Positions 17,746-20,045 of a stretch of 20,384 nt of DNA are shown one piece after another. The notes under the pieces were generated by a model that did not search any database, was not told the origin of the DNA, and saw only the letters and a list, made by a program, of their open reading frames with translations. The position numbers were made by a program, and so were the translations under genes. Numbering within the stretch: the stretch's first letter is position 1; each line of letters opens with the position of its first letter. The stretch is from a virus. Location of the stretch: the IMG/VR virus record IMGVR_UViG_3300037961_002640, positions 1-20,384 of that record, one strand, 5' to 3'.

Positions 17746-17910
17746 ATGATCGCACTTATTCGTCCAATCCTTTTCTCTTTTATCAACTCTGATAAGGTCA
17801 AGCGCCTGATCGTAGACCTTCTTAAGAAACTGGCTGAGTCCACCGAAAATAGCCTCGACGATGAAGCAGCGGCTTTTATCGAACGCGGTCTCTTTGGTGA
17901 GGTTGAGTGA
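17746..17910 (+). CDS. Small conserved cyanophage protein, 54 residues, function unknown
   Basis: ATG at 17746, stop TGA 17908-17910. The protein reads MIALIRPILFSFINSDKVKR, then LIVDLLKKLAESTENSLDDE, then AAAFIERGLFGEVE. It has an N-terminal hydrophobic stretch (IALIRPILFSFI) and two short amphipathic helices. Peptides of this size beginning with a hydrophobic helix and a lysine-rich LLKKL segment are common in cyanophages after the fibre genes. Its stop overlaps the GTG of the next gene by 4 bases (GTGA), so the two are probably translated together. The hydrophobic N-terminus could touch the membrane, but it is short for a full transmembrane segment. Part of the likely lysis or envelope cassette by position only. 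Confidence 0.75.
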   Translation: MIALIRPILFSFINSDKVKRLIVDLLKKLAESTENSLDDEAAAFIERGLFGEVE

Positions 17911-18323
17911 GCTGGCCGGAGCCCCCAAAGCTTCCCTCTTTTGAGATCCCAGAGCACTACCCCTTACCCGGTCCAACTATCGAGGTGCCCGAAGCACAGC
18001 TTCCTAAGCATCCACCGCTGGTGGTGCCTCCAAGCGACCTTAGACCTCCTCCCGGCATAGAAGGTGAGGAGAAAGACGAGGCCCCAAAAGAAGAAAAGAC
18101 TGTTCCAAAGGAAACGCAGCTGATCGAGGTGCCCTTCACTGATGTGGAGGTGCCAATGCCTACCACCGAGATCATGACGGCTGCAGCCACCACCGCAGTG
18201 ATTAGCGTGGCAGCCACCCTTACTGCCACGTCCGTGTTTAAGTGGCTCGTCACCTTAATGAAGCCTGTGTTTAAACAGACATGGAACAAGCTAACGAAAA
18301 AGAAGCCCCCAAAAGCTTCTTAA
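17907..18323 (+). CDS. Proline-rich protein with one C-terminal membrane segment, function unknown
   Basis: 138 residues with a GTG start overlapping the previous stop (GTGA). Residues 1-50 hold 17 prolines (MSWPEPPKLPSFEIPEHYPL, PKHPPLVVPPSDLRPPPG), then comes a charged linker with EEKDEAPKEEK. Residues about 87-115 form one likely membrane segment (TAAATTAVISVAATLTATSV), followed by a cationic tail KLTKKKPPKAS. By the positive-inside rule the tail would be cytoplasmic and the extended proline-rich arm would be periplasmic. A rigid proline-rich arm crossing the periplasm recalls spanin-like or channel-scaffold proteins, but no family match is claimed. The next gene begins 43 bases before this stop. 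The frame choice is supported by the coupled starts on both sides. Confidence 0.7.
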   Translation: MSWPEPPKLPSFEIPEHYPLPGPTIEVPEAQLPKHPPLVVPPSDLRPPPGIEGEEKDEAPKEEKTVPKETQLIEVPFTDVEVPMPTTEIMTAAATTAVISVAATLTATSVFKWLVTLMKPVFKQTWNKLTKKKPPKAS

Positions 18324-18571
18324 AAAAGGTCAAGGAAAGCACTGACCACGAACTCCATATTCTTGGAACATTTGTTCGTCTTGGTGTTGTTGTGTGGAGT
18401 GGTTTTATCATCACTCTAAACTACGTTGATCTGCCCATGATAAAAAAAGGGCAAAGCGGTGGGGACATAACCTTCGTGGCCAGCGTCTTTACTGGGGCGC
18501 TTGCTACGTTCGGTTTGAATACATCAAATAGCAAACCAAGCTCTAGATCTCCTAAGAAGGAAGAACCATGA
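18281..18571 (+). CDS. Two-helix membrane protein, holin candidate (T7 gp17.5 position)
   Basis: 96 residues starting MEQANEKEAPKSFLKKVKES. A charged N-terminus is followed by membrane segment 1 (about 28-48, LGTFVRLGVVVWSGFIITLN) and segment 2 (about 62-80, DITFVASVFTGALATFGLNT), then a basic/acidic tail SKPSSRSPKKEEP. Small size, two helices and charged ends fit a class II-type holin, and the gene lies between the fibre and the small-terminase candidate, where T7 has its holin gp17.5 (67 residues). It overlaps the previous gene by 43 bases and the next by 4 (ATGA). No endolysin gene is recognisable nearby. Other small phage membrane proteins would look the same, so the function is an inference. 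Confidence 0.6.
   Translation: MEQANEKEAPKSFLKKVKESTDHELHILGTFVRLGVVVWSGFIITLNYVDLPMIKKGQSGGDITFVASVFTGALATFGLNTSNSKPSSRSPKKEEP
18557..18563 (+). promoter_or_regulatory. Ribosome binding site AAGGAAG
   Basis: AAGGAAG lies four bases before the ATG at 18568, inside the end of the holin-candidate gene. It supports the choice of that ATG for the exported protein. Confidence 0.5.
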
Positions 18572-18924
18572 AAAGTATTTTCTTTTTTCTCGCTTTGCTT
18601 ACAGCAGCTCCTGCTGCATTTAGTCAAGTTACTGCAGACTTTACTCAAGGAAGTATGCAGAGCACCACGACTACAACCGTGGATATTGACAGAACAATCT
18701 CTATCGAAACTGTAGGAGGAGAATACAAAAGTTGGAGCGGAACAAATGTAACCCCCAGTGGGGACATCTTGGACGCTGCTACAACCTACTCCGTGACCAA
18801 TGCTGGCGAGCAATTCCAGCTGGAGACCGTAGACAGAGCAGCCGGAGTCATCGAGACTCAGCTGATCGACGAGGTTATTACACAAAACTCTGTAACTACT
18901 TCGCTCTCGGTCTTCTCTCAGTAA
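18568..18924 (+). CDS. Exported protein, conserved in cyanophages, function unknown
   Basis: 118 residues. MKSIFFFLALLTAAPAAFSQ is a signal peptide with a likely type I cut after AAFS; there is no lipobox cysteine. The mature part is Thr/Ser/Val-rich beta sequence (TQGSMQSTTTTTVDIDRTIS, TNVTPSGDILDAATTYSVTN, FQLETVDRAAGVIETQLIDE) ending TTSLSVFSQ. I recognise this ending from cyanophage proteins located before the terminase genes. The ATG overlaps the preceding stop (ATGA), and AAGGAAG lies just upstream. The protein should act in the periplasm or outer envelope of the host, perhaps during lysis or exclusion (inference). Its 3' end overlaps another exported-protein frame. Confidence 0.75.
   Translation: MKSIFFFLALLTAAPAAFSQVTADFTQGSMQSTTTTTVDIDRTISIETVGGEYKSWSGTNVTPSGDILDAATTYSVTNAGEQFQLETVDRAAGVIETQLIDEVITQNSVTTSLSVFSQ
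18714..18722 (+). promoter_or_regulatory. Strong internal Shine-Dalgarno-like AGGAGGAGA
   Basis: AGGAGGAGA lies inside the preceding exported-protein gene, 10-12 bases before a TTG at 18732 that opens the frame of the next exported protein. It may start that frame, act as a pause site, or be chance, since it codes for VGGE in the first gene. See the finding on the missing start. Confidence 0.4.
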
Positions 18925-19382
18925 GCGGATTTCCGGCTCTAGCAGAAGATCCAAAGGTACAAAATACATCATCTCCGGTAGCAGCAGCTACGGGAAATGT
19001 TACTAATCAAGCGGTGCAATTTCAGAACAATGGAGCACCGTCTAGGCAATACTTTGCCCCTTCTAATAGCTGCAACGGGGCGACAATGCAGTTCTCCCCT
19101 TATTACATAGGCAGCGATACTATTCCATTCGAGACTGAAGGTTATGTTCGCTCCAACAATTTTGGAGCACAGATAAATTTCAGTGTGCCGTTGGATGGAT
19201 CTATGGTCGAGTTGTGTAAGTCTATTGCTCGTAGAAATGAGCAAAAGATGAGACTTGATTATGAGTTAGTAAGGGCGCTTCGATGTTCAGAATTACAAGC
19301 TAAGGGTTTCACTTTCCGTCCCGGAACAAGGATGGAAATCCTATGTAACGACATCGTACCTATCGTATCCGTAAATGATTGA
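18732..19382 (+). CDS. Second exported protein, conserved in cyanophages; start unresolved
   Basis: The believable protein begins near 18888 with a signal-peptide-like stretch LCNYFALGLLSVSGFPALA, followed by EDPKVQN, GNVTNQAVQFQNNGAPSRQ, SCNGATMQFSPYYIGS, INFSVPLDGSMVELCKSIAR, LDYELVRALRCSEL and ILCNDIVPIV. I recognise the NQAVQFQ, SCNGATM, FSVPLDG, LDYELVR and C-x-D-(V/I)(I/V)PIV-type pattern from cyanophage proteins. No ATG, GTG or TTG lies near this signal peptide. The only upstream in-frame start is the TTG at 18732, whose first 50 residues are Arg/Cys/Trp-rich and unlike a protein; the next in-frame start is GTG 19014, after the signal. Coordinates given are therefore the maximal frame. 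Its stop shares one base with the next ATG. Function unknown; envelope action is inferred. Confidence 0.65.
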   Translation: MERNKCNPQWGHLGRCYNLLRDQCWRAIPAGDRRQSSRSHRDSADRRGYYTKLCNYFALGLLSVSGFPALAEDPKVQNTSSPVAAATGNVTNQAVQFQNNGAPSRQYFAPSNSCNGATMQFSPYYIGSDTIPFETEGYVRSNNFGAQINFSVPLDGSMVELCKSIARRNEQKMRLDYELVRALRCSELQAKGFTFRPGTRMEILCNDIVPIVSVND

Positions 19383-19633
19383 TGGCTAACTCAAAAAAGA
19401 AAACCCACATGGGTACTGAAGAGCAGTTCGAGCTGCTCCACGGTCTTGTCACTTCCGAGTTCATTGCTCGGGTAAAAGGTGGTGAGGCTTCGACAGCTGA
19501 TCTTCGAGCTGCTGTTGAGTGGCTGAAAATCAACAACATCACGGGAGTTCCTGTTGAGGACAGTCCGCTGGCAGACCTGATGGGTCTGATCCCAGAACTC
19601 TCGTTCGACGACGTTCAACGTGAAGTCAAATGA
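19382..19633 (+). CDS. Probable terminase small subunit (T7 gp18-like)
   Basis: 83 residues starting MANSKKKTHMGTEEQFELLH. The ATG at 19382 shares its A with the preceding stop (TGATG); a TTG one codon upstream is less likely. The pattern is a basic start, a helix EQFELLHGLVTSEFIARVKG, then GEASTADLRAAVEWLKINNI, then PVEDSPLADLMGLIPELSFD and DVQREVK. Small terminases of T7-like phages have the same plan: a helix, a GEAS/A-x-DL turn, a second helix ending LK-x-NxI, and an acidic tail with SPL. T7 gp18 (89 residues) is nearly the same length. In the cell it would recognise phage DNA and regulate the large subunit during packaging. The order after the holin candidate and before an HNH gene supports the call. 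Confidence 0.75.
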   Translation: MANSKKKTHMGTEEQFELLHGLVTSEFIARVKGGEASTADLRAAVEWLKINNITGVPVEDSPLADLMGLIPELSFDDVQREVK

Positions 19634-19761
19634 GTCTCTACCGCAACATCAATAAGCGTAAGAAAGCAGGTACGTCCCGTTCTAAAAAGAACTCGACTAT
19701 CTCTCCTAAGGCTTACTCCAACATGAAGAAAGGGTTCCCTAAAAAGAAAGGTAAGAAGTAA
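19630..19761 (+). CDS. Small very basic protein, 43 residues, conserved in cyanophages
   Basis: ATG at 19630 overlaps the preceding stop (ATGA); its TAA shares an A with the next ATG (TAATG). The protein is MSLYRNINKRKKAGTSRSKK, then NSTISPKAYSNMKKGFPKKK, then GKK. Sixteen of 43 residues are Lys or Arg. I recognise this peptide family from cyanophages, where it precedes the next basic protein. It has no recognisable fold. The charge suggests binding to DNA, RNA or an acidic protein, and the setting among packaging genes makes DNA the first guess. The very tight coupling to both neighbours supports that it is really translated. Confidence 0.8.
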   Translation: MSLYRNINKRKKAGTSRSKKNSTISPKAYSNMKKGFPKKKGKK

Positions 19762-20045
19762 TGGCTCCACGTCGCTCCTCCAACCCTGGAAAAAGCGCAC
19801 GCTATTACGCAAAGAACCCTAAGGCTCGCGCAAAGAAAAACGCTGCACAGCGTAAGCGTAATAAGACTGACGCAAATAGGGCGTACAGATCCGAGCTAAA
19901 CGCTGAAAGACGGCGCAGGGGTGTGTACGGAAAAGGTGGTCCTGATATGTCTCACACCAAGTCAGGACGCATCGTTAAGGAATCACCAAAGAAAAACCGC
20001 GCCAGAAATGGACATGGCCGGAACGGACGTCTCAAAAAAGGCTGA
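19761..20045 (+). CDS. Basic protein, 94 residues, conserved in cyanophages, function unknown
   Basis: MAPRRSSNPGKSARYYAKNP, followed by KARAKKNAAQRKRNKT, AYRSELNAERRRRGVYGKGG, MSHTKSGRIV and NRARNGHGRNGRLKKG. Thirty-one of 94 residues are Lys or Arg. The pattern (YY-x-KN, a K/R helix, a YR-x-x-LN helix, G-x-YG, DxSH-x-KSG-x-IV, NRARNGHG) recurs in cyanophages, including T4-like ones, so it is conserved beyond T7-like phages. No cysteine, signal peptide or membrane segment is present. Aromatic and basic residues suggest nucleic-acid binding. It lies between the small-terminase candidate and an HNH gene, 3 bases before the latter. A role at packaging or at the capsid interior is an inference. 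Confidence 0.8.
   Translation: MAPRRSSNPGKSARYYAKNPKARAKKNAAQRKRNKTDANRAYRSELNAERRRRGVYGKGGPDMSHTKSGRIVKESPKKNRARNGHGRNGRLKKG

Follow-up and report, generated by a model that had tools for sequence, protein, structure and literature searches.

The window analysed here, i.e. the whole virus record of 20,384 bases, is a fragment of a T7-like cyanophage, and its closest named relatives are T7-like cyanophages including S-TIP37, S-RIP1, S-RIP2 and P-SSP7. Between the tail-fibre-region genes and the small terminase gene it carries two overlapping genes, here called A (18568-18924) and B. Frame B is open from 18690 to 19382 (Table 1). It lies in the -1 register to A, as a preliminary description of this DNA had stated. 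From this position alone one might guess that A and B are envelope-associated proteins made late in infection. Upstream of gene A (17746-18571), three small ORFs were observed, the last of which matches Pfam DUF6450 (104 bits); one small ORF of this region is proline-rich with a hydrophobic C-terminal stretch, and the group is possibly a cluster of membrane-protein genes close to that for the terminase small subunit. Two further small, very basic ORFs (19630-19761 and 19761-20045) separate the terminase small subunit gene from an HNH endonuclease gene.

Table 1. Features of the A/B locus (positions in the window).
Feature	Position	Strand	Basis
Gene A; encodes 118 aa, predicted to be secreted, with signal peptide MKSIFFFLALLTAAPAAFSQ and a conserved C-terminal TTSLSVFSQ*	18568..18924	+	Homologues, profiles
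AGGAGGAG, Shine-Dalgarno-like site for B, within A codons GTA GGA GGA GAA	18714..18721	+	Strongest such site in A
Start codon of B, TTG; counterpart of the ATG that most relatives have at -190	18732..18734	+	Alignment, census
Out-of-phase A/B overlap, 193 nt	18732..18924	+	Free of B-frame stops
Gene B, 216-aa predicted exported protein, start TTG 18732; phrog_1755/phrog_848	18732..19382	+	Homologues, start census
Hydrophobic signal core of B and A-x-A site (YFALGLLSVSGFPALA), over the last codons of A	18897..18944	+	Alignment, synonymous constraint
Predicted mature B domain, 145 aa, four invariant Cys	18945..19379	+	Alignment, structure prediction

The preliminary description had read both frames as real proteins, the first ending in TTSLSVFSQ, and homologues bear this out. 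Gene A homologues were found by tblastn in 34 phage records and A matches phrog_650 (E 1e-27), while the score against Pfam DUF6322 (29.8 bits) is just below the gathering cut-off of 30.6. A fold search with A gave no PDB match at E ≤ 0.001, and the best matches have only long beta-hairpins in common. Gene B has homologues in 447 records and matches phrog_1755 (E 2.1e-44); it is a member of the cyanophage hypothetical proteins annotated as gp165, T4-GC 235 or phrog_1755 and phrog_848. The fold search with B (model pLDDT 62) also gave no PDB match at E ≤ 0.001, and the structure prediction suggests, at moderate confidence, a long helix in the mature domain. The leader of B preceding the hydrophobic stretch comprises about 50 residues and is basic or charged. 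Its Lys+Arg content is 12.3 vs 9.7 expected, a small effect calculated with the relatedness of the sequences ignored, and selection on leader composition was rejected as an explanation on these grounds.

B had been described as an exported-protein gene without a usable start codon. A scan of the + strand confirmed that ATG, GTG and TTG are absent from 18803-18960, that TTG 18732 is the sole in-frame upstream start and that the next one is GTG 19014; we add ATA 18723 and ATT 18813 as near-cognate codons. TTG 18732 lies 190 nt upstream of the A stop (position -190). TTG is a standard bacterial start codon. The strongest Shine-Dalgarno-like site of the window's gene A, AGGAGGAG, serves positions 18727-18733, and its strength is not above what the conserved Gly-Gly codons of A yield after shuffling. 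Spacing to the TTG is 12 nt from AGGAGG and 10 nt from the second GGAG; the 12-nt spacing exceeds what is usually optimal in E. coli.

When relatives were aligned by distance to the A stop, 77 of the 97 loci collected first had ATG at -190, formed by the A-frame codons TCA TGG (Ser-Trp), and the window has TTG at the same base. An ordinary ATG in homologues is what the preliminary description had named as speaking against its reading, and since TTG 18732 occupies the position of this conserved ATG, the lack of a usable start is not supported. A pattern census of IMG/VR counted ATG at -190 in at least 120 stretches, TTG in 46, CTG in 32 and GTG in one, fractions that do not correspond to a random sample because the pattern by which many loci were gathered fixes the Trp codon at this position. 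Every counted stretch was confirmed by HMM as a true A gene, unlike one additional CTG match. Among 202 non-redundant podovirus loci, at least 119 carry ATG at -190, and an in-frame ATG, GTG or TTG precedes the B signal in 199. Three loci depart from this: P-SCSP2, whose B has an ATG but is in the other frame; L293, in which the contig end truncates A; and L097, which is a true exception. In L097 the B frame is intact and has no ATG, GTG or TTG ahead of the signal, the GGAGGTGAT motif is kept, and the nearest codons, at -193 and -190, are ATA and CTA. TTG at -190 is the only start in about 16 of the 202 loci, among them the window and the near-identical L241, and the close relative L300 has GTG there. 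On a rough tree the start class changed at least 19 times and TTG arose only about three times, the loci being related and not independent sequences. We also considered that TTG is offset by a stronger Shine-Dalgarno site, as GGAGG occurs in 13/17 loci of the TTG/GTG class vs 8/116. This idea was rejected: the enrichment is only suggestive and the association is not established, because it reflects one to three independent changes on the tree.

In other lineages B starts at -346, -109 or -64, and in cyanomyoviruses at -163, -61 or -289. Several loci (L010-L013, L016 and IMG/VR loci such as L243, L280, L297 and L305) have the B ATG about 7-11 nt after the A ATG; their A proteins begin M-K-K-W or M-K-L-W, nearly all of A is overlapped, and both starts may share one ribosome-binding site. 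In P-SCSP2 (L106, 1135-1969), the two genes overlap in the other register: B starts with an ATG of its own and encodes a compact signal peptide, and A still ends in TSLSVFSQ; the A and B proteins are therefore separable. The -1 overlap of the window recurs in sixteen annotated podovirus regions and one P-SSP7 duplicate record, where A ends in TTSLSVFSQ or a near variant and B runs YYFALCLLAVTPAYA-E or similar. Cyanomyovirus relatives carry the same A/B pair (protein searches of cyanomyovirus and podovirus relatives covered up to 80 loci each). The deposited B starts downstream of the signal in S-RIP1, S-TIP37 and P-SSP7 and far upstream in NATL1A-7 and S-SM2, and the gene is missing from the records of S-RSM4 and S-H9-2.

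Selection within the overlap was assessed from stop codons and synonymous sites. In the -190 class, which is partly defined by frame B being open at this site, the A codons from -190 to -30 contain 0.00 B-frame stops per sequence vs 3.35 expected from synonymous codon shuffling. Upstream of -193 the B-frame stops of this class are not depleted (3.83 observed vs 2.27 expected), and the stops of the third frame are not depleted either. The first-loci set, unfiltered for openness, has 0.27 B-frame stops vs 3.4 expected, and 88% of its sequences are open vs 2%. The edge of stop depletion was tested for the -346, -109 and -163 classes (the -64 and -61 classes have too few members), and the stop-free stretch shifts with the B start in every one of them. 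Depletion begins only after -109 in the -109 class and only after -163 in cyanomyoviruses with ATG at -163; in lineages with CTG at -190, frame B is open back to an ATG near -346, 8-11 nt past A's own ATG. Synonymous constraint ratios in A are low in the start region (0.36, 0.18 and 0.11 at codons -207, -195 and -192), near 1 across most of -170 to -70, and low again at -27 and -12 (0.05 and 0.11), the latter being the mark of the B signal core. Taken from these codon patterns, frame B is under purifying selection to stay open from its start codon.

One of the options raised earlier, a programmed -1 frameshift that fuses A and B late in A, would be in line with the -1 register kept in nearly all relatives and with the conserved junction DNA, in which ACT (-27) and GTC (-12) are almost invariant. 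However, this junction constraint fits the B signal core, and no slippery heptamer or homopolymer is found at the junction; the absence of a classical X-XXY-YYZ heptamer, seen before, holds in frame from 18732 to 18924. B-frame stops are avoided for 130-160 nt upstream of the junction, which is needless for a late slip, and the avoidance begins at the start codon in each class tested. The P-SCSP2 genes lie in another register. With no slippery site and an open frame that reaches upstream to the start codon, a frameshift is contradicted or at least needless, and we regard it as highly improbable. Slippage at -190 itself was also considered and discarded, as it leaves the NTG start codon and the other starts (-346, -109, -64, -163, -61) unexplained.

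That B initiates around 18880 with a non-standard codon, or else at ATT 18813, is suggested by the lack of ordinary starts in 18803-18960 and by the few homologues that begin at -64 or -61 (P-SSP3, S-H38, DSL-LC02/03). But the start of these homologues is an ATG, immediately before which frame B is closed, whereas the window has no such codon and the openness of its frame B back to -190 would not be required by a late start; such a start is thus very unlikely. That a mutation or sequencing error took the ATG of B, leaving a damaged gene or an artefact, could be proposed from the ATG found at -190 in most relatives where the window has TTG. Yet TTG, itself a standard bacterial start, is the only start in at least 15 other non-redundant loci, and B is intact and conserved. 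Since TTG recurs in other contigs, including the near-identical L241, it is not a sequencing error, and a lost ATG is barely credible as the explanation.

What remains of the earlier options is translation from TTG 18732 with a leader of about 50 residues, which is supported by the homologous ATG and by frame B being open from exactly that codon. We conclude that A and B are very probably two separate exported-protein genes with a 193-nt overlap, B being expressed by ordinary internal initiation at TTG 18732. Ribosomes would initiate internally at this codon, helped by AGGAGGAG inside the A coding sequence. The B product would consist of the basic leader and the hydrophobic signal core with an A-x-A site, at which cleavage is predicted to release the B domain of about 145 residues outside the inner membrane. 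As judged by comparison of the homologous loci, the start position is conserved, frame B is selected to be open, and the open stretch moves with the start; from this we infer that B is translated, its signal cleaved and the protein exported. Points against this reading are the long AGGAGG spacing, a Shine-Dalgarno strength no higher than after shuffling, the exception L097, the small number of TTG origins among related sequences, and the charged leader, whose 50 residues are many for a signal peptide. It is tempting to speculate that the overlap-encoded leader (about 20-110 residues) acts in its own right, e.g. as a long basic signal-peptide region governing export or timing, and that relocation of the start adaptively tunes it, although we consider this unlikely. 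A start 190 bases inside A is kept across ocean cyanophages, and therefore no frameshift or mutation is needed. The apparent recoding case is in this way settled as an ordinary internal start, and a positional rule for the B start is provided for T7-like and T4-like cyanophages, in which B is annotated with inconsistent starts or not at all.

Two exported proteins encoded in overlapping frames beside T7-like terminase genes are known from the Rz/Rz1 spanins (T7 18.5/18.7, lambda Rz/Rz1). A/B resembles these in its overlapping frames, exported proteins and terminase neighbourhood, and the comparison was made by layout and lipobox. The lipobox regex matched 0/202 in A and 1/202 in the B signal region, and assignment of A/B as a spanin pair was rejected for absence of the lipobox; unlike the spanins, both A and B look like cleaved secreted proteins. 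In the portions available of the literature on the A/B overlap, recoding, cyanophage translation data and virion proteomics, no description of the overlap was recognised. As expected for an overlapping pair, conserved proteins are found in both frames, the second start is conserved inside the upstream gene, and the second frame is under selection. On this comparative evidence A/B is a conserved, badly annotated overlapping pair and neither a recoding event nor a lesion. One start codon is here seen to relocate within an overlap in a clear natural series (-346, -190, -109, -64), with the stop-free stretch tracking it in the testable classes. According to the accessible parts of published accounts, in same-strand out-of-phase pairs of phages and bacteria the downstream gene starts within the upstream gene in another frame and the overlap constrains both genes (PMC3887535, PMC7017920). 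As far as these parts allow comparison, A/B differs from such pairs in the length of its overlap, which is 193 nt in the window and at most almost the whole of A, and in a B start that occupies several alternative positions depending on the lineage.
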